A stretch of DNA of 40,767 bases from a virus. This document shows positions 885 through 17,098 of the stretch, one piece after another. Each line of letters starts with the position of its first letter. Position 1 is the first letter of the stretch. Where the stretch lies: IMG/VR virus record IMGVR_UViG_3300040751_004063, positions 1 through 40,767 of that record, one strand, 5' to 3'. The notes under the pieces are model-generated. The model did no database searches, had not been told where the DNA came from, and was given only the letters and a program-made list of their open reading frames with translations. Made by a program: the position numbers and the translations under genes.

Positions 885-1073
885 ATGCCAATTAAAGTAG
901 CAAATGACATTGTGATTAGCAATGACAAGCATTTAGAAAACATCGCCGATGTTGATACAACAACAAGCAACACAATTAACGACAATCTTGTAGCAAGAGC
1001 AAACAAACTTGTAGTTAAGAATGCGGCGGGAACTGTTGTAAAAGAAATTTATGGAGCCGAGGACCGTAGCTAA
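885..1073 (+). CDS. Small late protein, probably structural
   Basis: This 62-aa protein is not assigned to a family. It contains two short repeats of a polar pattern (IVISNDKHLENIADVDTTTSN, then LVVKNAAGTVVKEIYG), as in small beta-rich virion or fibre-associated proteins. A TATAAATA late promoter lies 39 bases upstream, and the ribosome site TAGGAGATAAAG precedes the ATG. Its TAA overlaps the ATG of the 570-aa fibre-like gene (TAATG), so the two are translationally coupled and probably work in the same structure. Confidence 0.7.
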   Translation: MPIKVANDIVISNDKHLENIADVDTTTSNTINDNLVARANKLVVKNAAGTVVKEIYGAEDRS

Positions 1074-2785: not shown

Positions 2786-2797
2786 GGAGATTATATA

Positions 2798-3325: not shown

Positions 3326-3332
3326 GTGATAT

Positions 3333-4397
3333 ATGTTATGGAGTCCAGAAGGTATCAAGGTTTTTCTTGATATTTCAACGTATTGCAATGCGGGTTGTCC
3401 TCAGTGCCATCGTACCGATAAAAATGGTTTAGGAAAACAAGGTTGGCTTCCGTTAATCCAATGGGATCTTGAAACATTCAAAAAAGCATTTCCTCCAGAT
3501 GAAGTAAAGAAGGTTAATCAGTTTAAATTCTGTGGAACTTGGGGTGATCCTGTAATGGCAAAGGATCTATTTGAAATGTGTAAGTATATTGTGGACAACA
3601 ATTACTTTTGCTTTATTTCAATTGATACAAATGGTAGTATTCGTAATGACGATTGGTGGTGGGATCTAGGAGTATACTGCGGTTCTCAACTTGAGGTCGT
3701 GTTTGCAGTTGATGGAATAGATCAGGAAATGCACCAAAAGTATCGACGATTTACTGAGTTAGATCGTGTATTATCTAATATGGAAACATTGAGCAATACA
3801 AACGCAAAGGTACGTTCTCAAACCGTTTTGTTTAAACACAATCAAGATTATAAAGAACAGATCAAAGAATTAGTTAAAGCACACGGCGCTGATATTCATA
3901 CGTTTGTTATATCAGATAGATTTGACCATACTCAAGATGGGGTAGATCGGTTTATTGATGAGAATGGAAACGAAGATACGTTTGAAAGAGCCGACCAGGA
4001 ATCTTTACCTGACGGAAAAATATCAGGAACAGATATATCTGAAAACGAGTATGAAATCAAATGCCGTTGGGCAAGGCCGCGTAACGAGGTTGTGATTAAT
4101 CCTGATGGACAAGTATTGCCTTGCTGTTTCCATGCGAATGCCCATTATAAAAATAGAGTTGATAAAACATATGGACGTGAAATTGAACGCCACGAAATAT
4201 ACGCTGATGACTATAATCAGAACTTAGAAAAGTATAACATATTTCACACTACATTATCTGATATTATTACAAGCGAATGGTTTGCGAAAAAATTACAAGC
4301 AAGTATGGAAGGAGATAACCCTGTTCCACAATGCGCACGCAATTGTAGTAATAGAATTAAAAAGCGTCATCAGTTAAGAGCATACCATGCAACCTGA
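3333..4397 (+). CDS. Radical SAM protein with SPASM-like C-terminus
   Basis: This 354-aa protein carries the radical SAM cluster motif CxxxCxxC at residues 18, 22 and 25 (CNAGCPQC), which would hold a 4Fe-4S cluster for S-adenosylmethionine cleavage. A second Cys-rich part near the C-terminus (CRWARPRNEVVINPDGQVLP, then CC, and later CARNC) fits a SPASM or twitch auxiliary cluster. Such enzymes usually modify peptides or proteins, and sometimes sugars. The gene follows virion genes and overlaps the next, glycosyltransferase-like gene by 11 bases, so it may modify a virion protein or act in glycan synthesis. The substrate is unknown. Confidence 0.85.
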   Translation: MLWSPEGIKVFLDISTYCNAGCPQCHRTDKNGLGKQGWLPLIQWDLETFKKAFPPDEVKKVNQFKFCGTWGDPVMAKDLFEMCKYIVDNNYFCFISIDTNGSIRNDDWWWDLGVYCGSQLEVVFAVDGIDQEMHQKYRRFTELDRVLSNMETLSNTNAKVRSQTVLFKHNQDYKEQIKELVKAHGADIHTFVISDRFDHTQDGVDRFIDENGNEDTFERADQESLPDGKISGTDISENEYEIKCRWARPRNEVVINPDGQVLPCCFHANAHYKNRVDKTYGREIERHEIYADDYNQNLEKYNIFHTTLSDIITSEWFAKKLQASMEGDNPVPQCARNCSNRIKKRHQLRAYHAT

Positions 4398-5001
4398 TAG
4401 TATTATATTTGTAAAACACGGCGACAAGTATAGCGCTTTACATGTAAATAGACTTTATAAGCAATTAGTTAAATATTATCCCAACGCAGATTTTTATTGC
4501 TATACTGAAAACAAGCAACATATTGATGCAAGAATCAATATTATTCCAATACTCAAAAAACCATCTTTAAGGTTTTGGTGGAATAAGCTTGCGATGTTTA
4601 GTAAAGATTTTCCAGTTAAAGGCAAGTGTTTATTTTTTGATTTGGATATGGATGTTAAAGAAGACCCATCTAATTTTATTAAATGGAATAATCTTACAGT
4701 TATCAATGCGTATTGGAAAAAAGATATGTATTTTGATAAACATGCCTATGACGTAAAAATAAATAGCTCAGTGATAACGTGGACAGCAAAACAGCAAGCT
4801 CATATATGGGATCACTTTATGACGAACCGCGATTACTTTATGCGAAAATACAAAGGCATAGATCGCTTTCTCGTTCACGAAGGTTTTGCTTTGGATACGT
4901 TTGCCGACGGGATTGTAAACAGTGTAGCTAACGAAAATTATATCGCACCAATTGATATGTATAATGGAATCGAATATGAATTACCGAGAATTGCTTTATA
5001 G
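4387..5001 (+). CDS. Glycosyltransferase-like protein, GT-A type
   Basis: This 204-aa protein has a DxD-type motif in CLFFDLDMDV at about residues 80-88. This is the metal and nucleotide-sugar site of GT-A glycosyltransferases. The N-terminal pattern (SALHVNRLYKQLVKYYPNAD) fits a Rossmann-like start. It is small for the class and could be a minimal enzyme. It overlaps the radical SAM gene upstream and the methyltransferase downstream, pointing to coordinated synthesis. The acceptor is unknown, with virion protein or host glycan both possible. Confidence 0.65.
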   Translation: MQPDSIIFVKHGDKYSALHVNRLYKQLVKYYPNADFYCYTENKQHIDARINIIPILKKPSLRFWWNKLAMFSKDFPVKGKCLFFDLDMDVKEDPSNFIKWNNLTVINAYWKKDMYFDKHAYDVKINSSVITWTAKQQAHIWDHFMTNRDYFMRKYKGIDRFLVHEGFALDTFADGIVNSVANENYIAPIDMYNGIEYELPRIAL

Positions 5002-5617
5002 AAATGCACTGAATGCCATTGACGATCTTTATGAAAAAAGTAAATGGAATCCTGACGTTGACCTTTTTCGTATACACGACATTATCAATTCAGTAAACGA
5101 AAACCAATTTGCTTCAAAGGAATGGTTGGTTAATAACCTAATGCCATTCATAGATAAAAAGGTTAACAACATTGCTGTCCTTGGATCGTGGTACGGATTA
5201 ATCAGTTTATTATTACGAGAGCAATTAGAAACAAACCCGCACATTCATAACGTTGATTCTGATCCTGAGACGGCACGTTTTGCTAAACTGTTATTTCAAG
5301 GAATGGAAAGCGACCGAACCTATTGTATTATTGAAGATGCTGAAGAATGGGTATTTGACAATATACAAAAATGTGATATAATTATTAATACAAGCTGTGA
5401 GCATATGGAGCCTGAAGATTTGTTGTTAATGACCCGAATGAAAGCACCGAATACTTTAGTCTGTTTTCAAGGTAACAACTATCACGAAATCCAATCCCAT
5501 ATCAATACACACAATAGTCTTGATGAATTTGTAGATTCGCTAGGTCTTCGAAAGGTTGAATGGAAAGGTTCTCTTGATGCTGGTAAATATGAAAGATATA
5601 TGGTAATAGGAAAATGA
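4976..5617 (+). CDS. Class I SAM-dependent methyltransferase-like protein
   Basis: The protein is 213 aa if started at the ATG at 4976. An in-frame ATG at 4964 is also possible, while the longer frame from the TTG at 4952 is unlikely. The sequence NNIAVLGSWYGLISLLL fits the glycine-rich SAM-binding motif I, and HNVDSDPETARFAKLLF fits motif II with an acidic ribose-binding residue. It lacks a classical catalytic motif that would name the substrate. It overlaps both neighbours, the glycosyltransferase-like gene and the tandem glycosyltransferase (ATGA at 5614), so methylation of the same product is likely. Confidence 0.65.
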   Translation: MNYRELLYRNALNAIDDLYEKSKWNPDVDLFRIHDIINSVNENQFASKEWLVNNLMPFIDKKVNNIAVLGSWYGLISLLLREQLETNPHIHNVDSDPETARFAKLLFQGMESDRTYCIIEDAEEWVFDNIQKCDIIINTSCEHMEPEDLLLMTRMKAPNTLVCFQGNNYHEIQSHINTHNSLDEFVDSLGLRKVEWKGSLDAGKYERYMVIGK

Positions 5618-7371
5618 AACGAGTAATATTTACAACTTACGACGATATTAATCGTGGCGAAAAAGTCAATAAAAGTCAGGCAACGGTTGATCTTGATTGG
5701 AAGGCAACTCGTCAGGCTGACATTGCCAAACAGAAATGCATTGAAGAATACTTTGACCGACTGCTACAAAACAAAAAAGATTATGCTGAAAAGATCGGCG
5801 TTGAATTTATTTTCTATCGCAATACGATGAAGGATTTTGAGGTTGATGTAAATTTAGAATTTGCGAAGGTCAATTTATATAAGCATCATTTGATGGCAAA
5901 CCTTGCTGAAGAATATGATGAAGTAATGTACGTTGATATGGACGTTGTATTTAATACAGACGAAAACGTATTTGAAGAATTAGATCTAAGCAAAGGCATT
6001 TATATTAGAGATCAAGATTACGATATTATTGGCAAGGACAAGCAGGATTTGCTATTTGATGTTATCGGATTACGTTCTCCTACTCTTAAATATCATATCA
6101 CAAAAGATTTGTTAGGTGGTAAGGATAACCACGTAATGAATACGGGCATTATGTTAGCAAGATCTGAATACATTAAACAGATTCAGTTTGTTGATAGATT
6201 ACCTTCCATTATTAATAAGCTCGAAGACATTAAAGATAAAGCTTTATCAACCGACGCAATCTTCGGTACAATTATGCTAAGTTATTATCCAAATAACGAA
6301 AGCATATTCTCATACATCCTTGAAGAATACAACATCCCATACGTACTAATGGATGAGGAATGGCATAAAATCTATTCGGAGTTACCAGCAGAAGGTTACG
6401 AAGGAAAGATCCTACATATTATCAATAAACAATTTGGTAGGTTTTTCAAAGATAAAACGAAACTGATTTTTTCTTTACATATTGATATTCCTGAGGAAAG
6501 ACTCGATAATCCAAAAGGTTATTCAGATAATCCTGAAAACAAAAGCGCAATAGCAAAAAGACAATTAAACAAATACCGAGAAAAAATATTAGATAATCAT
6601 AAAGATTATGCTAAACACATCGGTGCTGATTATGTTCATATCGGTCGTAATGAAGAATACGAACAATTCTATAAACGCTTTCCGCAATTATCAGAATATG
6701 ACGTAATCAATTTATATAAGATTTGGTTAACTGAAAAGCTAACAAAAGATTACGACCTTGTAATGTATGTTGACTTTGACTGTTTGTTTTTAAGTTATGC
6801 CGATGCGTTTGACCACGTTCCTTGTAGCCATGCTCTTTGTTGTTTTTATAATACTGCCGCGGAATTAAAAATTGATGGCAAGTCATCTGAATATCTTGTA
6901 AACTATAATAAAGATTTTCGTAATCCTCAAGCAAAGTATTGGAATTCACATGCACTACTAACGAACGACGATATTGAAAACGAAAACTACGCGTATAACA
7001 CTGGCGTTATTATAGCCAATAAAAAATCAATGGAACAACTTGATTTCTTTGGAGATATTGACGAAGTGCTTGATACAATGTTAGAACTTAAAGAAGATGA
7101 GTTTAGCATGTATCCTAGTAATATAAGAGCATCTTTTGGGTACGATAACGAAACAATCTTTTCCTATAAAACAATTAAGAACAACGTTCCTGTATTCAGA
7201 CTTGCAGCACATTGGCATTCTCAACATAACTATGATAATATAAAATCTTTTGAAATAGGTCATCAAGCATGGTATGCCGCAAGGAACAAATATAACGCAA
7301 GAAACATTGAAGACAAGGCTGTCATAAAACACTTTATTTCTAAAAACTTTAGCCTGTACTTTGAAGAATAA
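5614..7371 (+). CDS. Tandem-domain glycosyltransferase (two GT-A domains)
   Basis: This 585-aa protein is an internal duplication. In the first half NKKDYAEKIGVEFIFY, NLYKHHLMANLAEEYDEVMY, VDMDVVF and NTGIML recur in the second half as NHKDYAKHIGADYVHI, NLYKIWLTEKLTKDYDLVMY, VDFDCLF and NTGVII. Both halves keep a DxD motif (DMD, DFD), so both may be active, resembling GT8-like GT-A enzymes. Two domains in one chain could add two sugars in sequence. ATGA overlap couples it to the methyltransferase. Product and acceptor are unknown; fibre or other virion glycosylation and surface glycan modification are candidates. Confidence 0.75.
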   Translation: MKRVIFTTYDDINRGEKVNKSQATVDLDWKATRQADIAKQKCIEEYFDRLLQNKKDYAEKIGVEFIFYRNTMKDFEVDVNLEFAKVNLYKHHLMANLAEEYDEVMYVDMDVVFNTDENVFEELDLSKGIYIRDQDYDIIGKDKQDLLFDVIGLRSPTLKYHITKDLLGGKDNHVMNTGIMLARSEYIKQIQFVDRLPSIINKLEDIKDKALSTDAIFGTIMLSYYPNNESIFSYILEEYNIPYVLMDEEWHKIYSELPAEGYEGKILHIINKQFGRFFKDKTKLIFSLHIDIPEERLDNPKGYSDNPENKSAIAKRQLNKYREKILDNHKDYAKHIGADYVHIGRNEEYEQFYKRFPQLSEYDVINLYKIWLTEKLTKDYDLVMYVDFDCLFLSYADAFDHVPCSHALCCFYNTAAELKIDGKSSEYLVNYNKDFRNPQAKYWNSHALLTNDDIENENYAYNTGVIIANKKSMEQLDFFGDIDEVLDTMLELKEDEFSMYPSNIRASFGYDNETIFSYKTIKNNVPVFRLAAHWHSQHNYDNIKSFEIGHQAWYAARNKYNARNIEDKAVIKHFISKNFSLYFEE

Positions 7372-7374
7372 ATA
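7367..7374 (+). promoter_or_regulatory. Weak late-promoter-like box AATAAATA
   Basis: The box differs from TATAAATA at the first base. The segment ATAAATAAATC followed by AATAAC is shared with the late promoter at 839, and both precede a small gene by a similar distance. This supports a real late promoter feeding the 103-aa gene and probably the enzyme operon behind it. Confidence 0.45.
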
Positions 7375-7396
7375 AATCAATAACGGAGGATAAATT

Positions 7397-7708
7397 ATGC
7401 CTACACAAACAGTTACAGTTACACCCCCAGCTACAATGCCTGACGCAACGAGAGCACAGGTAATGGGTTATGTGCGCGAATTGTTGCCAACAAATGTACA
7501 GGATTTTCTTGCAACTGCAGAAGTTGATGGCGGCCGTACTACTGAGGTATCAGTTGCTGATGGAGTATGGACAGTTCAAAATACTTTTACTGATGCCGCC
7601 GCGGCTGAATATAAAACGCTCATGGCAGGTGTTTCTCAAACAGTTAAAGATACAATGACCGGTAACGGTTGGGCGATTTCTTTTTCCCCTGAGACTGCCG
7701 ACCTTTAA
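7397..7708 (+). CDS. Small acidic protein of unknown function ahead of the P450 operon
   Basis: This 103-aa protein begins with a Thr/Pro-rich stretch (TQTVTVTPPATMPDATRAQV), followed by a mixed alpha/beta region with AEVDGGRTTEVSVADGVWTV. It has no Cys, no membrane segment, and no carrier-protein Ser motif that I can identify. The strong GGAGG ribosome site and its own late-like promoter suggest abundant late synthesis. It stands between the glycosyltransferases and the P450 operon. It could be a virion protein, or less likely the protein substrate of the neighbouring enzymes. No family is recognised. Confidence 0.65.
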   Translation: MPTQTVTVTPPATMPDATRAQVMGYVRELLPTNVQDFLATAEVDGGRTTEVSVADGVWTVQNTFTDAAAAEYKTLMAGVSQTVKDTMTGNGWAISFSPETADL

Positions 7709-7725
7709 TCAACTTTTATTATATT

Positions 7726-8973
7726 ATGAGAAAAACTGATTTTGATATAACTCGTTCAGAGTTCCTTTATAAAATGGATGAACACGCGGAGTTTCTTTTT
7801 GAAAACGAACCGCGTGGATTCTTTTGGCACCCAACGTATAAGCATTGGATAATCTTTTCAATGGATCGCTTAAAAGAAGCATCCAAAATGAATGAAGCGT
7901 TCAGCTTAGCAAAAACTTCACCTGCACCGTTTGATCCAACTCCATTAGGTGGTATATGGCGTGCAGGTTATGCGTTGACTTTACGAGAAGGTCCTCATCA
8001 TCATTTAGCAAAAAAGCACAGCCTTGAATGGATTCGCCGTCGTGCTGACGATTTCCTTGATATTTTTACTAAGAATGTTAATGACTCATTAGATACAATT
8101 GAAAAAGGCAAACCATTTTTGTCTTATGATGTAATCGGACGCATCGCAACTGATACGCAAATTCAGACTATTGAATTTCCGTGGGATGAGCTTGACGTAA
8201 CTGAAGAACAAGTAAAAGATGGCTTTCACGAATGGATGAGACCTGGCAACGTATTCTCAAACTATAATCCAGATTTTGATTACGATAAGCCGGTTGCTGA
8301 AACAACTGAATTCTATAAAATGTTTTCTCAGGCTGTAAACGATACTCTTGATTATTATATGCTTGAAGGTCGTAACGAAGATACGATGGTCAATATGGCA
8401 TATAACCTAAGCGATAAGCAATGGGAATATAACGATAATCCAAAGCTGATGGGATATATGTTTATTCAGTCGTTATGGACTGTCGTGATTCCAACGTTTG
8501 CTTTGTCTTTATATCAGTATCTTGTAATGTGTTTAGCAAACCATCCTGATATTGTGAAAAGAATTCAAAAGGATCGCGAGCTTGTTAAAAACTTTACTCG
8601 AGAAGTATTACGTCTTGCTCCTCTTAAAGGCGGTATTCGAGATATTACAGAAACAATGGACTATCACGGATACAAGTTTGACCAAAATGGGCGTATTCTT
8701 TTATATACGTATGGCGCAAACCGAGATCCAAAATATTACAAGGATCCATTAGAATTTAAATTAGAACGAGACGACGAGCCGTATCCTGTTACGCTTGCTT
8801 ATGGACCGCACCATTGTACTGGCGATTTTTTAGTTAAAAAATATTTAGATGTTATTACGAATGCGTTGCTTGACCGATTTGAAACCTTTGAGATTACAAA
8901 GGAACCTGAAAGATTGGCAGCAATGTTTGGATCTACAACCGTATGGAAGGACTTGGAATTTAAATTCACATGA
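7726..8973 (+). CDS. Cytochrome P450
   Basis: This 415-aa protein has the full bacterial P450 length. The heme-thiolate loop is YGPHHCTGDFL with Cys364, the K-helix ExxR is E293-V-L-R296, and the usual ANRDP segment lies at 331-335. It would hydroxylate, cross-link or otherwise oxidise a substrate in the cytoplasm, with electrons from host ferredoxin or peroxide. The I-helix (SLWTVVIPTFALSLYQYLV) seems to lack the normal acid-Thr pair for oxygen activation: Ile and Pro occupy those places in my alignment. The ATG has no clear Shine-Dalgarno sequence. The stop overlaps the next start, so it leads a coupled operon. P450s are rare in phages. Confidence 0.93.
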   Translation: MRKTDFDITRSEFLYKMDEHAEFLFENEPRGFFWHPTYKHWIIFSMDRLKEASKMNEAFSLAKTSPAPFDPTPLGGIWRAGYALTLREGPHHHLAKKHSLEWIRRRADDFLDIFTKNVNDSLDTIEKGKPFLSYDVIGRIATDTQIQTIEFPWDELDVTEEQVKDGFHEWMRPGNVFSNYNPDFDYDKPVAETTEFYKMFSQAVNDTLDYYMLEGRNEDTMVNMAYNLSDKQWEYNDNPKLMGYMFIQSLWTVVIPTFALSLYQYLVMCLANHPDIVKRIQKDRELVKNFTREVLRLAPLKGGIRDITETMDYHGYKFDQNGRILLYTYGANRDPKYYKDPLEFKLERDDEPYPVTLAYGPHHCTGDFLVKKYLDVITNALLDRFETFEITKEPERLAAMFGSTTVWKDLEFKFT

Positions 8974-9497
8974 TAAAGCCAGAATTCAGAACAGAAATTT
9001 TATTTGAAGCAAACGAAGATCTCATGGAATTTGTCCATGCTTGTAAAGAACGTGGGTTTAAAAACAACGATTCACTCGAGCGTATGAATTTCTTTGTAAC
9101 AATTAAAGGTGGCGGTTGCTGGTTTGCCACGTACGATGAAGATAAAATTGTTGGAGTGAGTGGATTACATAAATTCAAAGATGGGTATAGGGCATTGTAC
9201 CGAGGATGCCAGTTATATTCAATTCCTGGTGGGTTAAGCCGTAACCATATGAATTGTTGGATGTTCAAATACCATTTGCCTTTAGCGATTGATATTGTTA
9301 ATAGAGAACCTATATACATTACAACAAATACCGAAAACGATGCAAGCGGTTCAATGCTTAGACTAAATCGCTTATATTATATTCTCGAAAAGAATGGTAT
9401 CGTTAGTCATGTTAGTAAAGAACAGGTACGCGGTGTGGAACAAAATATTTGGTTATTAAATCAAGAAAAGTATTTGAAAGTTAGAGGTGAAGCATGA
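8970..9497 (+). CDS. GNAT-like acyltransferase (tentative)
   Basis: This 175-aa protein has an overall pattern fitting the GNAT fold: an N-terminal helix pair, the strand CWFATYDEDKIVGVSGLHKF typical of the beta2-beta3 region, and later YITTNTENDASGSMLRLNRL resembling the segment after the acetyl-CoA site. The canonical Q/RxxGxG/A pyrophosphate loop is not clear, so the call is tentative. It overlaps the P450 and halogenase genes by 4 bases each (ATGA), a strong sign that all three products act in one process. N-acylation of an amine intermediate would be the expected role. Confidence 0.5.
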   Translation: MIKPEFRTEILFEANEDLMEFVHACKERGFKNNDSLERMNFFVTIKGGGCWFATYDEDKIVGVSGLHKFKDGYRALYRGCQLYSIPGGLSRNHMNCWMFKYHLPLAIDIVNREPIYITTNTENDASGSMLRLNRLYYILEKNGIVSHVSKEQVRGVEQNIWLLNQEKYLKVRGEA

Positions 9498-10663
9498 AAA
9501 TCGCAATCTTAGGAGCAGGCAGCGCAGGCATTTTAACCACCGGCTGTATTCTTAAAGATTTTAAAAACCGTGGTATTGACTGTGAAGTTACTCATGTTTT
9601 TGATCCAAACATTCCAATTCTTGGCGTAGGAGAAAGCACAACCTCAGAAGTAACCTTTGCGATTGGGCAAGCATTTGACTTTATATTTGCCACAGAGGCT
9701 AAGGAATTAAACAGCACGACAAAATATGGTACGCATTATATTGATTGGCGTGAAAAGGATATTATCTTTCCATTTCAAACTGGTTATCATGCCGTTCATT
9801 TTGATGCCCGTGATTTTGCAAAGATGGGTTTAGACAGATTACAAAAACTCTATCCAAATTATACATTACTTGAAGGAGAGGTTGGTGACCATCCAATGTG
9901 GGATAGCGCAGGTTGTGCATTAACAATCAACAAAGAGCTATGCGTTTTTGACTATGTGATTGATTGTCGAGGCAGACCTCAAGACTTTACTGATTATAAA
10001 GAATGTGATTTAATTTTAAACTCGGCATTGGTATACGACGATCCTGAACCTTCTGACTTTGGATTTACTCGTCACGTAGCTCATAAGTATGGATGGATGT
10101 TTGTAATTCCGTTGCAGCATCGCACCTCACACGGATTGCTATACAATAATAATTTTGCCGATAAGAAAATGGCAATTGAAGAACTTATTCGTATCACGAA
10201 TGCGACCGAGGATGATATTGAGGACTTCAGAACATTTCCAATTAAACCATATTATTGTAAAAAGACAGTCAACGGACGTATGCTCAAGAATGGTAACAGA
10301 GCGGTATTCTTTGAGCCTATGAGTGCTAACTCACTTTATATGGCTGTTAAAAATACTCAAATTTTATCGGATTACATTAGAGGCGAAATTAATGAAGATG
10401 AAGCAAACGAGTTGTGCGTATTAAATTACCGTGCTGTTGAAGATCTCATTAATTTGATATATCACGGTGGATCAATATATGAAAATGAATTTTGGGATTG
10501 GGCAAAAGACCGAGCCTCAAATAATTTAAAAGAAACTGATGTATTACAAAGATATGTAGCAGATCAGGAAGATCAGATGTTCAAAACAATAACCGAAAGA
10601 TTTATGGGTCATCACGTATTGCGATACGTAGACCGTGAATTTGGTTTTAATTACTTTAGGTGA
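9494..10663 (+). CDS. Flavin-dependent halogenase, tryptophan-halogenase superfamily
   Basis: This 389-aa protein starts with an FAD-binding GAGSAG at residues 7-12, followed by GVGESTT (44-50) as in flavin halogenases. Lys77 in TTKYGTHYIDW aligns with the catalytic Lys of PrnA (K79) that carries the halogenating species. The family motif WxWxIP appears as WMFVIP (201-206), with Phe for the second Trp. In EPMSANSL (274-281) the catalytic Glu of Trp halogenases (EPLEST) seems replaced by Ser, which argues against a Trp substrate. A marine cyanophage halogenase, VirX1 of Syn10, is known to halogenate varied aromatics. A flavin reductase is not in the window, so the host would supply FADH2. Confidence 0.85.
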   Translation: MKIAILGAGSAGILTTGCILKDFKNRGIDCEVTHVFDPNIPILGVGESTTSEVTFAIGQAFDFIFATEAKELNSTTKYGTHYIDWREKDIIFPFQTGYHAVHFDARDFAKMGLDRLQKLYPNYTLLEGEVGDHPMWDSAGCALTINKELCVFDYVIDCRGRPQDFTDYKECDLILNSALVYDDPEPSDFGFTRHVAHKYGWMFVIPLQHRTSHGLLYNNNFADKKMAIEELIRITNATEDDIEDFRTFPIKPYYCKKTVNGRMLKNGNRAVFFEPMSANSLYMAVKNTQILSDYIRGEINEDEANELCVLNYRAVEDLINLIYHGGSIYENEFWDWAKDRASNNLKETDVLQRYVADQEDQMFKTITERFMGHHVLRYVDREFGFNYFR

Positions 10664-10667
10664 ATAT

Positions 10668-11438
10668 ATGCCGTTAAGAACTTGGTACGATAATTATGAT
10701 GAGGATTATTTCCGTGATGCCGCCGAGAAAGGGATTGTAATTAAAACAAGTGGTTCATCTGGAGAGCCTAAGGAAATATTTCAACCTCCGTATAAATCAA
10801 TAGCAAATTCTCACGCTGCTATTGAAACGCAAGGTATTACTGGCAATTCAGTAATCTATACTTGTTTGAATCCACAAAGAGCAGGCGCATTGTTTGCCCA
10901 AACAATTCCAGGTTTAATGGCCGGAGCAACTGTTGACCTTGAAAAGTTCAACCCATATCGTTATGTGCAGATAGCCCATAAATATACACATACGCACTTA
11001 ACGCCGAAGCAAGCGTTAGCTGTGATGAGAACAAAAGGCTTTAAAGATCTTAACTTAAAAGATAAAGTATTTTTAGTTGGATCTGAGCCTGTCACGTTTG
11101 ATATTATTGAAGCATTCGTTGATCGTGGTGCAACTGTTATAACAATATGGGGAATGACTGAAATTGGAGTAAATGCTATTATGCATAAATTCCGTTCTAA
11201 ATTTGACGTCATTGCGGCATTAACTAAGCAACCAAAAAATGCAACGGTCCTTGGAAACATATTCCATTGCGAATGGAAGGTAGATGAAAACAATTGTCTT
11301 TGGGTAAAAGGCGATTCTTGCGTGTATGACGATTGGTTTAATACAAAGGACCAGGTCGTTGTTGATGATTGGGGATGGCTTTGGTATACTGGCCGTGATG
11401 GCACTCCTGTAGATTTTAAAAATCCAAGAAAAGGTTAA
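10668..11438 (+). CDS. Minimal AMP-forming adenylation protein (ANL superfamily)
   Basis: The start at 10668 is chosen because AGG precedes it by 7 bases; the longer frame would run back into the halogenase gene. The 256-aa protein keeps the ATP loop TSGSSGEPKE (A3), WGMTEIG (A5), and WGWLWYTGRDG (A7-A8). The N-terminal subdomain of usual ANL enzymes and the mobile C-terminal domain with the A10 Lys are absent: normal members are about 500 aa. It could still adenylate a carboxylic acid, or act as a partial enzyme with host partners. Sitting between halogenase and radical SAM genes, it may activate an acyl or amino acid for the pathway. Confidence 0.75.
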   Translation: MPLRTWYDNYDEDYFRDAAEKGIVIKTSGSSGEPKEIFQPPYKSIANSHAAIETQGITGNSVIYTCLNPQRAGALFAQTIPGLMAGATVDLEKFNPYRYVQIAHKYTHTHLTPKQALAVMRTKGFKDLNLKDKVFLVGSEPVTFDIIEAFVDRGATVITIWGMTEIGVNAIMHKFRSKFDVIAALTKQPKNATVLGNIFHCEWKVDENNCLWVKGDSCVYDDWFNTKDQVVVDDWGWLWYTGRDGTPVDFKNPRKG

Positions 11439-11439
11439 A

Positions 11440-12972
11440 ATGAAAATAGATAAACCATATGACATTATCATTATGACTGAAGGCAGCGATCCTATCTTTC
11501 AGGTAGCACGTGCTGTTGGCGGTTATAAGATTGCGTCACATATGCGTAACCTTGGGTATAGTGTGTTTGTATTAAACAACTTTACCCATTGGATTAAGAA
11601 CGGTAGAATGGAAGAGTTGCTTGATAAACTCATTGGTGAAAATACGTTATGGTGTGGATTTAGTTCTACGTTGTTTATGAGACGCGGCGATGATGTTTAT
11701 ACAAAACGGCATACTCGAGACGGTGCTCGAAAAAATATTCTGTGGCGATGGCCGACACAGGATGAAGATATTAAACAGATGACAGACTATATCCGTGCCA
11801 AAGGTGTTAAGACTGTTTATGGCGGAATGATGAATGCTCATCGCGCGCAAGAAAAAGAAGTTGCGGACTGTATTGACTATTATGTTGTTGGTATGGGTGA
11901 AGCAATGGCTGAGCATATTACTGACCATTTAAAAAACGGAACACGCCTTAATTACAATATTGCGTATGGTTCAAGTCCGAAGGTAATTGATTTTGACCAA
12001 AAAGGAAATCAGTTTGATTTTAGAAACTCGCAAATCAATTATGTGCCTGAGGATTTTTGGAATCCTGAAGACGCAATGGGAATTGAGTTCGGCCGAGGTT
12101 GTATTTTTAAATGTAAATTCTGTGCGTATCCATTAATCGGTAAAAAGAAAGGCGACTTATCGTTCCTTCGAGAAAAAGAAAAGATCAAACACGAGCTACA
12201 ACAAAATTATGATCTATACGGAACAACCAAATACGTAATCATTGACGATACATTTAATGAGCAAACAGTTAAGCTGCAGGCAATTGCCGAAGCGATTGAA
12301 GAATTGAATCTTCCTGAGCAATTACAGTTTTCAGCATTTATCCGTATTGATTTAATTGTAAGATATCCTGAGCAACTTGATTATCTGAAGCGAATTAATT
12401 GCTGTGCGTGGTTCTTAGGCATTGAAAGTTTAAATCCTGACGCGGCAAAAGCTATTGGAAAAGGTTGTAGTAAAGATAAGATCTTTGAAACAATCCGCCG
12501 CTCAAAGGAAGTATTCAATCAAGAGCTGAGTGTGTATGGTAGTTTTATTACAGGATTGCCACACGACAATGAAGAAACAATGGATGTATGGACAAAAGAG
12601 TTATTTAAAAACTCAGATCTATTTGATTCGTATTCGTTTAGCCCATTGGAATTAGGTACAGCATCAGAATTATCTATAAGGCACGAGGAATACGGTTTTT
12701 ATGTTGAGCCTGATACAAAACGTTGGATCCGCGACGATTGGACCAGTGTTGAGGCTGTTGAGTATACTAAAAAATTACAAGCCGAATTCATTGACGATAT
12801 TAAGGTAGCAACTTTTTTCCTTATGTTTTATCAATGCCTTGGGTATGAATTTTCAGAATTACGTAAGATGACGTTTACGCAATTGTTTGAAGATCCTGCA
12901 GTTAAAGAACGCGCTAAAGCGTATATGCAAAGAAGTTATTATGATAAAGTAGAAAGCTTTTTAGGACTATGA
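11440..12972 (+). CDS. Radical SAM enzyme, B12-binding-type architecture
   Basis: This 510-aa protein has the CxxxCxxC motif at residues 221, 225 and 228 (CIFKCKFC). About 210 residues precede it and resemble the Rossmann-like cobalamin-binding domain found before the radical SAM core in methyltransferase and cyclase families; a DxHxxG B12-ligand motif is not visible. VIIDDTFNEQ and LGIESLNPDAAKAIGKG after the cluster match the barrel of this class. Possible reactions are methylation at unactivated carbon, or ring formation. It begins one base after the adenylation gene stops and overlaps the next gene by 4 bases. The substrate is unknown. Confidence 0.8.
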   Translation: MKIDKPYDIIIMTEGSDPIFQVARAVGGYKIASHMRNLGYSVFVLNNFTHWIKNGRMEELLDKLIGENTLWCGFSSTLFMRRGDDVYTKRHTRDGARKNILWRWPTQDEDIKQMTDYIRAKGVKTVYGGMMNAHRAQEKEVADCIDYYVVGMGEAMAEHITDHLKNGTRLNYNIAYGSSPKVIDFDQKGNQFDFRNSQINYVPEDFWNPEDAMGIEFGRGCIFKCKFCAYPLIGKKKGDLSFLREKEKIKHELQQNYDLYGTTKYVIIDDTFNEQTVKLQAIAEAIEELNLPEQLQFSAFIRIDLIVRYPEQLDYLKRINCCAWFLGIESLNPDAAKAIGKGCSKDKIFETIRRSKEVFNQELSVYGSFITGLPHDNEETMDVWTKELFKNSDLFDSYSFSPLELGTASELSIRHEEYGFYVEPDTKRWIRDDWTSVEAVEYTKKLQAEFIDDIKVATFFLMFYQCLGYEFSELRKMTFTQLFEDPAVKERAKAYMQRSYYDKVESFLGL

Positions 12973-13553
12973 AATATTTTGAAAAAATGCCACTCCAAAA
13001 ATTTAGCGGTTTATTGAATGAAATAGAATTACTTAAACGAACAGGCGAGGTATCTTGGTTGCAACCTTCACACCCATTAAGTGCTGAACAGATTTGTTTA
13101 AATGCTGCTCCTGGATATACTGATGATGTTAATTTTGGAGCGGGATTTTTTGCCGACAAAGGTAAAAGCGATTTCTTTATCCGCCATACACCGGAAGGTG
13201 ACGTTAGAATTCCAATGAAACCTAGCTCAGTTTACGATTGGGAATTGTGCGATGTGTTTGTCGGTACTCTATTTGAAGATATGTATAATGTATTAAAGAA
13301 AAGGTTCAATATAGGCCGTGTAAGATTGCTCAAATCAAAACCACGTACTTGTATGAATTGGCACATTGATCCTATACCACGAGTTCATTATCCAATTCAA
13401 ACTGATGAAGGATGCCTTATGATTATTGAGGATGAGATATACCATCTTCCATTAGGAGAATGGACTTTTGCTCATACCGATAAAGGTTACCATACGGCAC
13501 TTAACGCCAGCGGAACAGATCGCATTCATTTTGTGGCGGATATATTGCCATGA
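12969..13553 (+). CDS. 2-oxoglutarate/Fe(II) oxygenase, aspartyl/asparaginyl hydroxylase-like
   Basis: This 194-aa protein has an HxD iron motif at H132-D134 (MNWHIDPIPRVHYPI), a distal His175 in KGYHTALNASGTDRIHF, and Arg185 in place to bind the 2-oxoglutarate carboxylate. That arrangement fits the Asp/Asn beta-hydroxylase (cupin) branch. It would hydroxylate a peptide side chain or small molecule using O2 and 2-oxoglutarate. ATGA overlaps on both sides couple it to the radical SAM enzyme and to a second oxygenase. Substrate not predictable from sequence. Confidence 0.8.
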   Translation: MKYFEKMPLQKFSGLLNEIELLKRTGEVSWLQPSHPLSAEQICLNAAPGYTDDVNFGAGFFADKGKSDFFIRHTPEGDVRIPMKPSSVYDWELCDVFVGTLFEDMYNVLKKRFNIGRVRLLKSKPRTCMNWHIDPIPRVHYPIQTDEGCLMIIEDEIYHLPLGEWTFAHTDKGYHTALNASGTDRIHFVADILP

Positions 13554-14056
13554 AAAAATATCTAACGCATTTGCCGATATCTAAACAATTGGTCGAAGAT
13601 CTTAAAGATGAGTTTTACGACAATCTTCATCGAGCTAAAAAGTATACTGCATCCAACGGAACAATTACTCGTACCCTTGAAGAGATGGATGTAATACGTC
13701 TTGACGATATGGTAGATTGCGATCTTGCGCATTCAATCGCAAACAGATTATCGCATATGATTGGGACTCGAGTTAAACCGCGATATTATAGACAGGCTGC
13801 GCATTCAGATTTAAATTCTCATCGTGATGTTGGCGCAACTGTTGCTATCAATATTATTTTAAATGGTGAAGGTCCTGTTACGTTTGATGATAAATATAAT
13901 ATATATTACAAATGCGCTATGTTAAACGTACAAGAATTGCACGGCGTTAAAACTGACGATACGCGTATTATGTGCCGCTTTACAATTGATGATATGGATT
14001 ATGATGAGGTGTTGGAAATGATTAAAGGTAAAGAAAGTGAACTCTTCGATATTTAG
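13550..14056 (+). CDS. Second 2-oxoglutarate/Fe(II) oxygenase-like protein
   Basis: In this 168-aa protein DLNSHRDVGATVAINIILNG gives an HxD pair (H91, D93). Distal His131 in QELHGVKTDDTRIMCRF with Arg139 or Arg143 completes a likely Fe(II) and 2-oxoglutarate site. It is divergent from its neighbour, so the pair is not a recent duplication. Overlap by 4 bases with the upstream oxygenase and by 20 with the methyltransferase keeps it in the coupled operon. It could hydroxylate or desaturate the same product. Confidence 0.7.
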   Translation: MKKYLTHLPISKQLVEDLKDEFYDNLHRAKKYTASNGTITRTLEEMDVIRLDDMVDCDLAHSIANRLSHMIGTRVKPRYYRQAAHSDLNSHRDVGATVAINIILNGEGPVTFDDKYNIYYKCAMLNVQELHGVKTDDTRIMCRFTIDDMDYDEVLEMIKGKESELFDI

Positions 14057-14696
14057 AAAGGCAAATGTGTTTGATATTTTTACACAGATTGTCGACGATT
14101 ATGAAGATAAGACTATTTTAGACTTTGGCGGCAACCGAGGTAATCTAATTGCTTCAAGCGAAGGCAAAATTAAACCAGAAAATTATACTTGTCTTGATGT
14201 AAGCACAGAAGCATTACGATTATGCGAAAAAGAAAACCCTGGCGTTTCAACAATCCATTGGGATTATTATCACGGGCACTACAATCCTGACGGCAATCCT
14301 AAAGAAAAATTTCCATTTATTCCACAATATTACGACATTGTGTTTGCGAATAGTGTCTTTACCCATATGGATATCTGTGAGGTAATGCTTTGCCTCAAAA
14401 CGCTATCCCATTATACGAAACAAATCGTGTTCACATACATTGATCCAGATAACGAACAGTTTATTCAAAAGTTTCGTGACAAGTATTATGATTTATATTT
14501 TGAAAAGAAAAACGTATCATATACGAAAGGTAAGTACGGACTGTTATGGAGTGCGTTTGATACTAACTATCTAATGTCTCGTATAAAGTTTACAAGAAAA
14601 GTTGAAGCAGGAAAAACATCTTGGTTCAATTACATGGTGTTGAATTGCCGGGATCCTGCTTTGCCGGTTTATTCTTTTACTCCATGGTATGTATAA
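14037..14696 (+). CDS. Class I SAM-dependent methyltransferase
   Basis: The start is GTG at 14037, with AAAGGTAAAG just upstream. No ATG occurs before the conserved region. The 219-aa protein has a clear SAM motif I, ILDFGGNRGNL (about residues 27-37), a motif II acidic residue in YTCLDVSTEALRLCEKE, and the motif IV region YYDIVFANSVFTHM. It is the last gene of the enzyme operon and could O-, N- or C-methylate the product. A late promoter for the next genes starts at its stop codon. Confidence 0.8.
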   Translation: MNSSIFRKANVFDIFTQIVDDYEDKTILDFGGNRGNLIASSEGKIKPENYTCLDVSTEALRLCEKENPGVSTIHWDYYHGHYNPDGNPKEKFPFIPQYYDIVFANSVFTHMDICEVMLCLKTLSHYTKQIVFTYIDPDNEQFIQKFRDKYYDLYFEKKNVSYTKGKYGLLWSAFDTNYLMSRIKFTRKVEAGKTSWFNYMVLNCRDPALPVYSFTPWYV

Positions 14697-14699
14697 ATA
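14692..14699 (+). promoter_or_regulatory. T4-type late promoter TATAAATA
   Basis: An exact TATAAATA overlaps the stop codon of the methyltransferase gene. The predicted transcript starts near 14705 and would carry the two DUF6356-like genes, about 22 bases before the first ATG. The following AAAGGAGGATGCG is a strong ribosome site. Confidence 0.7.
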
Positions 14700-14727: not shown

Positions 14728-14940
14728 ATGACTACACTAACTCAACATTTAAATAAGGCAAATACTGGATACTTCGGCCACATTAAGATCGGCCTAAACA
14801 TGGTCATTTGGTCTGTAGCAGTATTCGTAACAAGTTCAATCCATGCCCTATTCCCATTTGCTTTGGAGAAAGCATCTATGAATGCGGCGAAGAAACTGGC
14901 GAGCTTGGTAAACGAAACGTTTGAGCACCACGAGGTATGA
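14728..14940 (+). CDS. Small membrane protein, DUF6356-like (copy 1)
   Basis: In this 70-aa protein one hydrophobic stretch (IGLNMVIWSVAVFVTSSIHA, about residues 22-41) is followed by LFPFALEKAS. The order Gly-Tyr-Phe-x-His, hydrophobic segment, His-Ala-(Phe/Leu)-x-Pro-Phe is shared with the next gene and with DUF6356 proteins. Function is unknown; the hydrophobic segment suggests the inner membrane. It lies behind a late promoter, so a role late in infection, for example on the host envelope, is possible. Confidence 0.7.
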   Translation: MTTLTQHLNKANTGYFGHIKIGLNMVIWSVAVFVTSSIHALFPFALEKASMNAAKKLASLVNETFEHHEV

Positions 14941-14941
14941 A

Positions 14942-15226
14942 ATGAAGTTTGGTAATTTAGGCAGATATGGATATCTGATTAATACTGAGCACTTACAAGA
15001 AGTTCGTTCTGGATATTTTGAGCATATGTGGTTTGCTATCAAATTGAGTACATTTGGATTGGTAAATGCGATTACAGGTTATACCCACGCATTTCTACCG
15101 TTCTTGTTTCCTAACACTCCTCATAGAATTACTTTAAGACAGGTTGAACTCGCGGAAGAACTTATTGCTTCGCTCAGAGGAGTTATTGAGGCCGAGGACG
15201 CAGCTCGAGAAAAAAATATGAAATAA
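14942..15226 (+). CDS. Small membrane protein, DUF6356-like (copy 2)
   Basis: The start at ATG 14942 is preferred over the upstream TTG because GAGGT lies 5 bases before it. The 94-aa protein shows SGYFEHMWFAIKLSTFGLVN, then a hydrophobic segment and HAFLPFLFPNTPHR, a fuller version of the pattern in the preceding gene. The C-terminus is a charged helix. Its last codons and stop lie inside the repeated A-tract element that precedes early promoters. Two adjacent copies suggest hetero-oligomers or divergence after duplication. Function unknown. Confidence 0.75.
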   Translation: MKFGNLGRYGYLINTEHLQEVRSGYFEHMWFAIKLSTFGLVNAITGYTHAFLPFLFPNTPHRITLRQVELAEELIASLRGVIEAEDAAREKNMK

Positions 15227-15688: not shown

Positions 15689-15897
15689 TGTTTGGACAAA
15701 ATCTTTCCCTAACTCGTTTTAAATCTGGTCTTACATATGACGAAGCTGATGCTTTGGTCGAATCGTATCTTTCTACCATTCAGGACAAAGACGCAAAAAT
15801 TGCAGTACTTGCTTCTTTTTTGAAAACTAGTGTACGCGACAGTAAGCATACACGGGATGTAATCAGTCAACTTGTAGGAGAACGCAAACGTGCGTAG
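15688..15897 (+). CDS. Small protein of unknown function
   Basis: This 69-aa protein is mostly helical by composition, with a charged C-terminus (RDVISQLVGERKRA). It overlaps its upstream neighbour by 1 base and fabB by 8 bases, so it is translated together with both. GGAGG stands 8 bases before the ATG. No family recognised. Confidence 0.65.
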   Translation: MFGQNLSLTRFKSGLTYDEADALVESYLSTIQDKDAKIAVLASFLKTSVRDSKHTRDVISQLVGERKRA

Positions 15898-17098
15898 AGT
15901 TGTCGTCACGGGGATCGGTATTAGATCCCCAATCGGTAATGATCTTGAAACTGTAGAAAAAAACCTAAGAGAAGGTAACTCAGGAATTAAACATAATCCT
16001 GATTACGCAATTGTAGACATGCGATGTAATATTGCTGGCATGTGCGACTTTAAACCGGTTGACGTTGTAGACCGACAACACTATCGTTGGATGGGTCCTA
16101 CAGCAGCAATGGGTTATTTGTCTTGTCTTTCAGCAATTGAAGATGCAGGACTTACTGATAATGAAGTAAGCAACCCAGATACTGGCTTGTATTTTGGATC
16201 GGGTACTTCATCTTCTGAGTTTCAACAATATGCGCAAGACGTTTATGTTCGTAAAGGAGTTCATCGAGAACCAACTATTGTGTTTAAGATTATGAACTCT
16301 ACTACTTCTGCAAATCTTACAAAAGCTCTTAAGATTTATGGTGAAGGGTTTACAATCTCTTCAGCTTGTTCTTCAAGCGGCCACTGTATTGGTGAAGGAT
16401 TTAGAACCATTGCCAACGGTTATCAAGATCGTATGCTTGTTGGCGGTGCTGAAACTAATCATTATAGTATTGCTGCAATGCTCGATGCTTTAATGGCTTT
16501 ATCTTCAAAGTATAATGACAATCCTACCGCGGCATCACGTCCGTTTGATAAAAACCGAGATGGATTCGTTCCTGGAGAAGGTAGTGGCTGTTTGATCCTT
16601 GAGGATTACGATACAGCAATTGCTCGAGGCGCAAAGATCTATTGTGAAATTATCGGTTATGGCGCAACCTCGGACGGATATGATATGGCGCATCCATCTG
16701 GCGAAGGTGCTGTTCGTTGTATGCAAAAAGCAATGAAACCTAATTGGCCAGAAATTGACTATATTAATGCGCACGCAACTGGGACACCAGTGGGTGATAC
16801 AAAGGAACTACAGGCCATTAGATCAGCCTTTGGTCCGGACAATATACCACCAATTAGTTCTACAAAGTCTCTAACAGGACACGGTATCGGCGCAGCAGGT
16901 GTTCAGGAAGCAATCTATTCAATCATTATGATGAATAAAAACTTTATTGCTGGCACGGCAAACCTTCAAGAAACCGACGAAGGTTTTGAGGATTATCCTC
17001 TTGTCCGTCAAAGTGTTGACGCGGAACTGACCACAGTGATGTCAAATTCCTTTGGGTTTGGCGGAGCAAATTCGTCGTTGATATTCCGCAAGGTTTAG
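15890..17098 (+). CDS. fabB: 3-oxoacyl-ACP synthase I (FabB type)
   Basis: The GTG start at 15890 has AGGAGA 8 bases upstream and gives 402 aa, close to 406 in E. coli FabB. The Cys-His-His triad is complete: Cys160 in ISSACSSSGHCIGEG, His295 in NAHATGTPVGDTKE, His331 in STKSLTGHGIGAAG, with Lys326. YGATSDGYDMAHPSGEGAVR and ELTTVMSNSFGFGG are near-identical to FabB rather than FabF. The enzyme elongates acyl-ACP with malonyl-ACP and, in E. coli, is needed for unsaturated fatty acids. No ACP is in the window, so host ACP would be used. It may shift host lipid synthesis or feed the enzyme island with acyl chains. It is expressed from an early promoter. Confidence 0.93.
   Translation: MRRVVVTGIGIRSPIGNDLETVEKNLREGNSGIKHNPDYAIVDMRCNIAGMCDFKPVDVVDRQHYRWMGPTAAMGYLSCLSAIEDAGLTDNEVSNPDTGLYFGSGTSSSEFQQYAQDVYVRKGVHREPTIVFKIMNSTTSANLTKALKIYGEGFTISSACSSSGHCIGEGFRTIANGYQDRMLVGGAETNHYSIAAMLDALMALSSKYNDNPTAASRPFDKNRDGFVPGEGSGCLILEDYDTAIARGAKIYCEIIGYGATSDGYDMAHPSGEGAVRCMQKAMKPNWPEIDYINAHATGTPVGDTKELQAIRSAFGPDNIPPISSTKSLTGHGIGAAGVQEAIYSIIMMNKNFIAGTANLQETDEGFEDYPLVRQSVDAELTTVMSNSFGFGGANSSLIFRKV

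Follow-up and report, generated by a model that had tools for sequence, protein, structure and literature searches.

Possession of a compact block of genes for oxidative and tailoring enzymes, conserved as a group and under selection, by several distantly related phages, known from metagenomes only, suggests that infection by these viruses yields a compound of the phages' own making. We describe the block as it occurs in the window—that is, the whole stretch of 40,767 nucleotides analyzed, from the IMG/VR record IMGVR_UViG_3300040751_004063—and propose, with moderate confidence, that it constitutes a mobile, phage-owned, late-expressed operon that would draw on a host metabolite to build or tailor a small molecule resembling an amine or amino acid, with halogenation as an optional step.

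Layout of the Block

Eight intact open reading frames (ORFs) occupy positions 7726–14696 on the + strand and encode proteins of 415, 175, 389, 267, 510, 194, 168, and 219 amino acids, the successive junctions (overlaps negative, gaps positive) measuring −4, −4, −29, +1, −4, −4, and −20 nucleotides. The 29-base overlap becomes a gap of 4 bases if translation of the adenylation gene (10635..11438, +) begins at an in-frame ATG, position 10668, the start used by its relative in contig L003; and with that probable start the ORF coordinates agree with the spacing given in the original prediction, of overlaps of 4 to 20 bases and gaps of at most 4. The true unit is wider than those eight genes. Downstream it adds two genes (14728–15226) for small membrane proteins of the DUF6356 family, the first of 70 aa with a hydrophobic stretch (14728..14940, +; PF19883, E 1.1e-7), the second (14921..15226, +; PF19883, E 3.6e-10) listed with a TTG start, versus the ATG at 14942 that is the start kept in relatives; upstream, in about half of the carriers, it adds a gene for a 103-aa protein (7397..7708, +), which is then the first gene of the unit, its product being a candidate substrate or carrier.

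Pfam recognized no NRPS, PKS, terpene-synthase core, carrier protein, transporter, or flavin reductase among the block proteins, which absence of a scaffold-building enzyme, carrier, transporter, and flavin reductase counts against reading the block as a biosynthetic operon. A ketosynthase (15890–17098), considered as the missing scaffold enzyme, was rejected: it is of the FabB type (NF005935, E 6e-154, 512.8 bits, below the cut-off of 630) and occurs in only 3 of 25 contigs. This FabB-type gene sits downstream, outside the block.

Distribution among Viral Contigs

Independent scans with five of the block enzymes retrieved only members of a single set of 21 contigs with a single gene order, in which the P450, the GNAT-fold enzyme, the minimal adenylation enzyme, and the B12-type radical SAM enzyme were present in every contig reaching their places. 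No scattered copy was encountered among close relatives, so that the search of viral DNA for the same gene order bears out the idea of one multi-gene unit; and since the block keeps its order beside differing flanks, chance adjacency of the genes can be discarded. For the gene-order comparison we used 14 of the 21 core contigs, omitting five near-identical ones (40806_002487, 17958, 23180, 09436, and 21185) and two short ones (47453 and 48033_001486), and dropped ORFs below 45 aa along with strongly overlapping ones; by this filter the adenylation gene of L010 was lost, which gene is nevertheless present by tblastn.

Not all members are constant. The halogenase was absent from 4 of the 19 contigs spanning its place, although its own scan, which yielded 15 contigs, located it inside the block in all of them; both 2OG-type genes are absent from L004, and across the carriers these two genes can be missing, decayed, or joined to the radical SAM gene. 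A QueC-like ATPase lies within the block in three carriers, but not in the window's. The original prediction had taken the eight genes as one pathway: the linked unit stands, whereas the set proves variable. That unrelated auxiliary genes simply lie side by side in a hypervariable region is a reading to which we accord very little probability: the halogenase, both 2OG-type genes, and the DUF6356 genes can indeed be lost, and lone halogenases do exist in cyanophages, but the same order in unrelated backbones, the gene fusion, and the return of one contig set by five scans largely refute it.

Among cultured phages the P450 found no match at E 1e-5 and the radical SAM enzyme none above 25%, and a DNA search in phages likewise gave no match. 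A portal search was positive in 0 of 10 contigs, but in none of the control genomes either.

The Enzymes and Their Motifs

The cytochrome P450 (7726..8973, +; PF00067, E 7.5e-12, 45.2 bits against a cut-off of 22.8) retains the heme ligand C364 (GxHxCxG) as well as E293 and R296 (ExxR) in 14 of the 14 aligned sequences. Its I helix reads S249-L-W251-T252, so that the Thr is kept with a Trp at the acid position, again in 14/14; the acid–alcohol pair, at what we take by eye against P450cam to be its site, is incomplete. The 175-aa protein (8970..9497, +) had no Pfam match, and a single-sequence structure prediction reached a pLDDT of only 35; the alignment-based model (pLDDT 84.6, pTM 0.81), however, has the GNAT fold (Foldseek best E 7e-6; best VIA Z 12.3, with an rmsd of 3.3 over 155 residues), which fold upholds the earlier GNAT-like call and, on the strength of the model, makes the protein a GNAT-fold enzyme and predicted acyltransferase.

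The halogenase-family protein (9494..10663, +; PF04820, E 2.7e-30, 106 bits against a cut-off of 21) is closest to PrnA-like enzymes, VirX1 matching the window family more weakly (4.7e-8). G7, G9, and G12 of the FAD-binding GxGxxG and K77, presumably the catalytic lysine according to its position in PrnA, are invariant in 10/10. Of the motif WxWxIP carried by flavin-dependent halogenases, the second Trp is replaced by Phe in 10/10 (W201-M-F203-V-I-P206). This optional member is a predicted halogenase.

The adenylation enzyme gave a partial match to the AMP-binding family (PF00501, E 2.5e-12) and keeps T38-S39-G40 of the phosphate-binding TSG loop together with the core-motif residues K46, E176, D239, and R254 in 10/10, but lacks the usual N-terminal part and the C-terminal subdomain, its relatives all stopping directly after the GR motif at 253–267 aa. 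In the ANL adenylate-forming enzymes that subdomain normally holds a catalytic lysine; its absence thus renders activity uncertain and counts against the biosynthetic reading.

The radical SAM enzyme (11440..12972, +; PF04055, E 1.2e-16) has its cysteines C221, C225, and C228 (CX3CX2C) invariant in 11/11. Its assignment to the B12-dependent type is by resemblance: PF02310, the B12-binding family, scored 14.7 bits against a cut-off of 32.1, and the NCBIfam B12-type models align from about residue 108, all below their cut-offs. The nearest types are PhpK, HpnJ, and MgmA, all far under the NCBIfam curated cut-offs, and MgmA was the sole PDB match (E 8.7e-6, residues 207–383).

Two 2OG-Fe oxygenases had been proposed, of which the first holds: the 194-aa aspartyl/asparaginyl beta-hydroxylase-like protein (12969..13553, +) matches PF05118 (Asp/Arg hydroxylase, E 1.3e-5), has the HxD...H triad and the 2OG Arg (H132, D134, H175, and R185) invariant in 10/10, and finds its closest solved relative in Cpz10 of caprazamycin biosynthesis. 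The second, the 168-aa protein (13550..14056, +), matched nothing in Pfam or among PDB sequences, so that its label as a putative 2OG-Fe enzyme derives from the H-x-D ... H ... R pattern alone; this is present in 8 of 10 relatives of the domain, L005 and L015 having RTE instead, which loss also counts against the biosynthetic reading. Gene fusion has made this type of domain the C-terminal end of the radical SAM enzyme in 8 of 14 non-redundant contigs. The last gene encodes the 219-aa SAM-dependent methyltransferase (14037..14696, +; PF08242, E 5.2e-7).

The signals from Cpz10, from PhpK, HpnJ, and MgmA, and from the PrnA-like family point to natural-product or cofactor enzymes. Neither scattering of the genes nor dead catalytic residues in most of them, either of which had been named as an argument against one pathway, was found among close relatives; in the P450, the halogenase, the radical SAM enzyme, and the Asp/Arg-hydroxylase-like protein the motif positions are invariant throughout the alignments.

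Such family signals also bear on whether the block might hypermodify nucleobases of phage DNA or tRNA. Base modification does employ enzymes of the radical SAM, GNAT, and methyltransferase classes, and the QueC-like ATPase of the three carriers would fit there; but the window's block lacks that gene, the family signals point elsewhere, and we know of no halogenase or P450 precedent in nucleobase modification, for which reasons we regard this explanation as highly improbable.

Transfer between Lineages and Selection

Between the window and contig G003 the five main enzymes are 60–81% identical, whereas the clamp loaders are 31% identical, the window's being closest to those of T4-like phages and that of G003 to those of PA5oct-type jumbo phages; from which disparity we conclude that the block moves between lineages, and the T4-like setting originally given to it has to be abandoned as too narrow. 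Outside the block only five weak matches joined these two contigs (ORFs of at least 70 aa; 26–45% identity, two over fewer than 70 residues), and in the DNA compared no virion gene was common to the carriers. The suggestion that a virion protein might be the substrate is made less likely by these results.

The block genes are under purifying selection, with dN/dS values of about 0.08–0.20 for seven genes in the pair L011–L014. Evolutionary distances among the genes agree in part (r 0.56–0.85), and in the window–L003 pair the dS of the halogenase, adenylation, and first DUF6356 genes is below that of the P450 and radical SAM genes, which unevenness indicates that the block is a mosaic and counts against our main reading.

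A cluster borrowed from a host was discarded as an origin: scans of 84,980 species genomes with two short peptide patterns each, by which distant relatives would be missed, gave no relative of the P450 or of the radical SAM core. Bacterial plasmid P450s were about 22% identical over most of the length. A defense system was likewise rejected; PADLOC returned one match to a candidate model (radical SAM enzyme versus PDC-M51A, 6.5e-14).

Expression Signals and Flanking Genes

In 12 of 14 loci the first gene of the block is preceded by a T4-late-promoter-like motif. The copy ATAAATA at 7368..7374 (+) lies 22 nt upstream of the 103-aa ORF, an arrangement found at all nine loci examined; another, at 14693..14699 (+), lies 28 nt upstream of the first DUF6356 gene, as in 8 of 10 loci examined. 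The total in the window, 20 against 17.3 expected, does not exceed chance (27 of 100 shuffles were as high), whereas its occurrence at 9 of 59 gene starts was the highest of 21 permutations of the same letters, the next, with 7, being a frame-shifted version of the motif; thus only the placement stands out, and from it we infer late expression of the block. A general scan gave 90 promoter-like sites versus 73 expected and 10 terminator-like sites versus 13.

In the viral collection 11 contigs hold the 103-aa gene, in all 11 immediately before the P450 gene and nowhere else; the protein had no match among cultured phages at E 0.01. Its C-terminal residues G-W-x-I-x-F-x-P-x-T-A-D-L are invariant. 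These features bring up the alternative that the enzymes modify a ribosomally made protein or peptide, be it the 103-aa product, as a RiPP-like precursor or small virion protein, or some other late phage protein: a halogenase and an aspartyl hydroxylase could well act on the invariant C-terminal Trp and Asp; the exclusive position and the late-type motif speak for it; a strong ribosome-binding site (median −7.5 kcal/mol over 8 loci) versus the weak ones of the P450 and GNAT genes (−2.9 and −3.0 kcal/mol) would suit a substrate produced in surplus; and MgmA, the closest solved radical SAM enzyme, modifies a protein. Yet the gene is present in 11 and absent from 9 of the 20 contigs showing its place, 6 of those 9 carrying the halogenase; the adenylation and GNAT enzymes would be superfluous; and among the block proteins scanned Pfam brought up neither a peptidase nor a transporter or recognition domain. 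We judge this alternative rather unlikely, while noting that late expression and the tail-fiber neighborhood may fit modification of a late protein equally well.

The block adjoins tail-fiber-like and glycosyltransferase genes, which neighborhood raises the further possibility of a decoration of surface glycans or lipids, on the host envelope or the phage tail fiber, for instance to block superinfection or mask the virion, the block finishing a sugar or lipid from the neighboring glycosyltransferases. A GT-MT-GT-radical SAM module (window 3333–7371) lies on one side of the block or the other in several contigs, the DUF6356 proteins are of a membrane type, and the hypervariable host-recognition regions of pelagimyophages contain glycosyltransferases and radical SAM cassettes (PMC7029224). 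Other carriers, however, lack that module or have one of low similarity (GT5614 was found in 7 of 25 contigs), and a halogenase, a P450, and an adenylation enzyme would be unusual glycan tools, so that we deem such a decoration improbable. As a part of the block itself the module was rejected, since its side varies and many carriers lack it.

The DUF6356 genes were present in all 14 halogenase-positive contigs reaching their place and in none of 3 halogenase-negative ones, which three seemingly belong to one lineage and thus amount to nearly one observation. Of the 18 contigs in the DUF6356 scan, two begin inside the block, and L072 and L073 hold distant homologues with no block enzyme in the DNA fetched; no DUF6356 was found in plasmids. 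The pair may export the halogenated form, place it in the membrane, or provide self-protection against it.

Proposed Pathway

To the observed gene order, conservation, purifying selection, lineage transfer, intact motifs, and motif placement, the small-molecule reading adds an inferred substrate, reaction order, product, and benefit. According to our proposal, the minimal adenylation enzyme would convert a carboxylic acid into its adenylate, the GNAT-fold enzyme would transfer an acyl group to an amine, and the B12-type radical SAM enzyme would methylate a carbon that is not activated; the 168-aa oxygenase domain, which many carriers have fused to that enzyme, would perhaps take the next step on the same intermediate. 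The Asp/Asn-hydroxylase-like enzyme might then carry out a beta-hydroxylation, the P450 an oxidation, and the methyltransferase the capping, while halogenation would be an add-on paired with the DUF6356 membrane proteins. As the window proteins scanned include no electron-donor candidate for the P450 and the halogenase, electrons would come from the host.

More tentatively still, lytic phages may here own a late-expressed pathway of natural-product type, the first that is not borrowed from a host, which would pass between T4-like and jumbo-type phages as a module—P450, GNAT, optional halogenase, minimal adenylation enzyme, B12 radical SAM with or without the fused oxygenase, optional hydroxylase, methyltransferase, optional QueC-like ATPase, and the DUF6356 pair—and its product, halogenated or not, could be set free at the burst as a signal, a toxin, or an agent acting on membranes.

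Relation to Known Phage Systems

The lone halogenases of T4-like cyanophages and pelagiphages, of the type of VirX1, which reportedly iodinates, belong to the same superfamily, that of S-MS29 being 35.5% identical to the window's. In four records of that type no P450, adenylation enzyme, or B12-type radical SAM enzyme is annotated within 9 kb; the halogenase region of HTVC008M has several 2OG/phytanoyl-CoA dioxygenase genes nearby, and the neighbors in S-RIM4 are mostly unannotated. By contrast, the window-family halogenase is not lone, lying in the block wherever it was found.

Phage-encoded biosynthetic gene clusters (Dragos et al., 2021, via PMC10452541) are likewise gene sets for a specialized product; they are described as rare, mostly in temperate phages, and mostly bacteriocins, with antiSMASH finding none in 153 cyanophage genomes. 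The present block differs in having no recognized core enzyme and in being common to unrelated phages. The P450s of giant viruses and of the Mycobacterium phage Adler are, as here, viral P450s without a redox partner, but, as described in PMC9405906, stand outside any conserved multi-enzyme operon. The radical SAM cassettes of pelagimyophages share with this block a hypervariable region beside tail-fiber genes and the company of glycosyltransferases, whereas the words "halogenase" and "P450" are absent from the main text of PMC7029224. We found no description of this operon in open-licence PMC papers.

The block would offer biochemists unusual enzymes: one for adenylation that lacks the C-terminal subdomain, a P450 bearing Trp at the acid position of the I helix, and a radical SAM–oxygenase fusion. 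If our proposal is true, phages of coastal or marine-type bacteria would conduct multi-step oxidative chemistry of their own at a late stage of infection, and the role of the lone phage halogenases would become testable, since the halogenase is accompanied here by its likely partners and natural halogenase-free versions exist for comparison.

Composition of the Tailoring Block

The original prediction of eight ORFs at 7726-14696 (+), each overlapping the next or separated from it by a few bases, was confirmed, and Pfam backed the P450, halogenase, AMP-binding, radical SAM, Asp/Arg hydroxylase, and methyltransferase assignments. The 175-aa protein, which has no match in Pfam, had been called GNAT-like, and a structure predicted from a 12-sequence alignment indeed adopted a GNAT fold (pLDDT 84.6, pTM 0.81). 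As to the two 2OG-Fe oxygenases proposed, the hydroxylase was upheld through Pfam; the 168-aa protein, for which no family match was found, is a putative 2OG-type enzyme by its HxD...H...R pattern. The closest solved relatives by sequence were p450tol for the P450 (6.6e-22), a tryptophan halogenase (9luq, 9.9e-14; VirX1 at 4.7e-8) for the halogenase, feruloyl-CoA synthetase for the adenylation enzyme (1.2e-5), MgmA (9ccb, 8.7e-6) for the radical SAM enzyme, and Cpz10 for the hydroxylase (1.1e-8). The NCBIfam matches (e.g., radical SAM with PhpK, 1.1e-20) all lay far under the curated cut-offs, and are thus evidence of kinship, not of function. The radical SAM gene (11440-12972) also matched the PADLOC candidate-defence model PDC-M51A (6.5e-14), which match probably reflects a general B12-radical SAM kinship.

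Conservation and Optional Parts

Five scans of metagenomic viral contigs—built on short conserved peptides, and therefore limited in reach to fairly close relatives—returned 20 loci for the P450, 20 for the GNAT, 19 for the adenylation enzyme, and 15 each for the halogenase and the radical SAM enzyme, together amounting to 21 contigs. In no contig returned by any scan did a scanned gene stand apart from the block, and we regard a chance company of unrelated genes as highly improbable. With the parts lost in some carriers in parentheses, the order was (103-aa gene), P450, GNAT, (halogenase), adenylation enzyme, radical SAM, (168-aa type domain), (hydroxylase), methyltransferase, (QueC-like), and (two DUF6356 genes). 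The hydroxylase precedes the 168-aa protein in the window and contig L003; most other carriers have a fusion of the radical SAM with the 168-aa type domain, after which comes the hydroxylase. The hydroxylase is inverted in L034 and L036, and L004 has neither it nor the 168-aa type domain.

The halogenase was missing from 4 of the 19 contigs spanning its place (31974, 21085, 21185, 45135). Among contigs reaching the place of the second DUF6356 gene (the pair lies at 14728-15226 in the window), that gene was present in 14/14 halogenase-positive versus 0/3 halogenase-negative ones, which association is suggestive only, since the three negative contigs look like one lineage; the first DUF6356 gene was absent from one of the 14 positives (31519). 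Distant DUF6356 homologues also occurred in two other viral contigs, L072 and L073, whose retrieved DNA showed none of the block enzymes. A QueC-like ATPase (PF06508, E 5.9e-8) lies between the methyltransferase and DUF6356 genes in L010, L011, and L014; nucleic acids as the target of the block nevertheless seem to us very improbable. The 103-aa gene (7397-7708) adjoined the P450 upstream in all 11 contigs having it and was missing from 9 of the 20 where its place can be seen.

Selection and Catalytic Motifs

Nei-Gojobori dN/dS values for the pair L011-L014 were about 0.09 (P450), 0.11 (GNAT), 0.12 (halogenase), 0.08 (adenylation enzyme), 0.08 (radical SAM with the fused domain), 0.17 (hydroxylase), and 0.20 (methyltransferase); for the window and L003 they ranged from 0.06 to 0.14 across the seven genes with unsaturated dS, saturation affecting the hydroxylase, the 168-aa protein, and the methyltransferase. 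Invariant were Cys364 and ExxR of the P450 (14/14), GxGxxG, Lys77, and W-M-F-V-I-P of the halogenase (10/10), CX3CX2C of the radical SAM (11/11), and HxD...H plus Arg of the hydroxylase (10/10). Counting against full integrity of the block are RTE in place of HxD in the 168-aa type domain of L005 and L015, a Trp at the P450 I-helix position usually held by an acid, a Phe for the second Trp of the halogenase motif WxWxIP, and an adenylation enzyme that stops past the GR motif, without the C-terminal subdomain.

Predicted Expression

The window has ATAAATA, the core sequence of late promoters in T4, 22 nt ahead of the 103-aa ORF and 28 nt ahead of the first DUF6356 gene. It was found upstream of the 103-aa ORF at 9/9 loci, of the DUF6356 genes at 8/10, and of the P450 at 3/5 loci without the 103-aa ORF, these loci including near-identical pairs (L005 and L054, L008 and L009); the expected frequency is ~0.014 per 70-nt stretch, and the total count in the window is at chance level. 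Of those five loci, the two lacking the motif, L011 and L034, have another radical SAM gene directly before the P450. Median ribosome-binding strength was high for the 103-aa ORF (-7.5 kcal/mol), first DUF6356 gene (-8.7), and halogenase (-7.1), versus low for the P450 (-2.9) and GNAT (-3.0), so that, judging from these predicted sites, production of the small proteins may exceed that of the enzymes. A sigma-70 consensus match (12/12; TTGACA-16-TATAAT, its second hexamer preceded by TG) occurs at 5355-5382, within a methyltransferase gene outside the block (4952-5617).

Movement Between Phage Lineages and Neighbouring Modules

Between the window and contig G003, identity was 74% (P450), 60% (GNAT), 81% (halogenase), 65% (adenylation enzyme), 71% (radical SAM), 42% (hydroxylase), 32% (168-aa type domain), 57% (methyltransferase), and 69 and 72% (DUF6356 proteins). 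Beyond the block, only five matches (26-45%; ORFs of at least 70 aa) were found, among them the clamp loader at 31%, which in the window is nearest to Stenotrophomonas phage DLP_6, Melnitz, and cyanophages (56-51%), and in G003 to PA5oct-type Pseudomonas phages (54.8%), then Agrobacterium phage Atu_ph07 (49.2%). These comparisons point to transfer of the block between lineages, an argument carried mostly by that one backbone gene. For four block genes the evolutionary distances agree in part only (r 0.56-0.85), so that single parts are exchanged as well.

A radical SAM/SPASM, glycosyltransferase, methyltransferase, and two-domain glycosyltransferase module (3333-7371) precedes the block in the window and L003, where the two share a strand, whereas in L007, L008, and L010 it comes after the block in the opposite orientation; this difference would make it a second movable module. 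Surface glycans or lipids as the target of the block itself we hold to be unlikely. At 22201-26401 a nucleotidyltransferase-APH kinase-like fusion is followed by a small HAD-like and two glycosyltransferase-like genes (these latter names assigned by eye), a group that might serve to activate a sugar or choline. In L034 and L036 the P450 is preceded by an array (66-10014 in each) of three SPASM-cluster and two further radical SAM genes, two QueC/PP-loop genes, and one GDSL-like hydrolase. A FabB-type ketoacyl-ACP synthase gene (15890-17098) occurs in 3 of 25 contigs, the two other copies being 70% identical; its cultured-phage matches look like bacterial DNA within the records.

Proposed Substrate

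In the DNA compared, the block is common to the carriers but no virion gene is; this speaks for a substrate present in all hosts and, by extension, for a metabolite, a reading whose chances we consider evenly balanced. The enzymes would activate, acylate, C-methylate, oxidize, halogenate, and cap that substrate; a product with its action at the envelope, or else following lysis, is suggested by the predicted late expression and by the DUF6356 membrane pair. The chief competitor of the metabolite reading, in which the 103-aa protein or some other late protein is modified, would suit the constant place of the 103-aa gene beside the P450, sits poorly with its absence from many carriers, and is doubtful, if somewhat less so than the glycan or lipid proposal.

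Relatives in Cultured Phages and the Literature

Among 50,697 phage records, the P450, GNAT, and 103-aa proteins had no match, the radical SAM had four (24-25%), the adenylation enzyme one (23%), and the halogenase 58, all below 60% (top 35.6%). Lone phage halogenases are already known; unlike the block, none of the four such neighbourhoods inspected had an annotated P450 or adenylation neighbour, and in phage HTVC008M dioxygenase genes adjoin the halogenase. Phage biosynthetic clusters are described as rare and mostly bacteriocins of temperate phages, with none detected by antiSMASH in 153 cyanophage genomes (PMC10452541), and viral P450s as known but rare (PMC9405906). Searches of the open-licence PMC literature brought up no description of an operon resembling the block, which we regard as a new form of phage-borne biosynthetic genes and, were a product shown, possibly as more than that.
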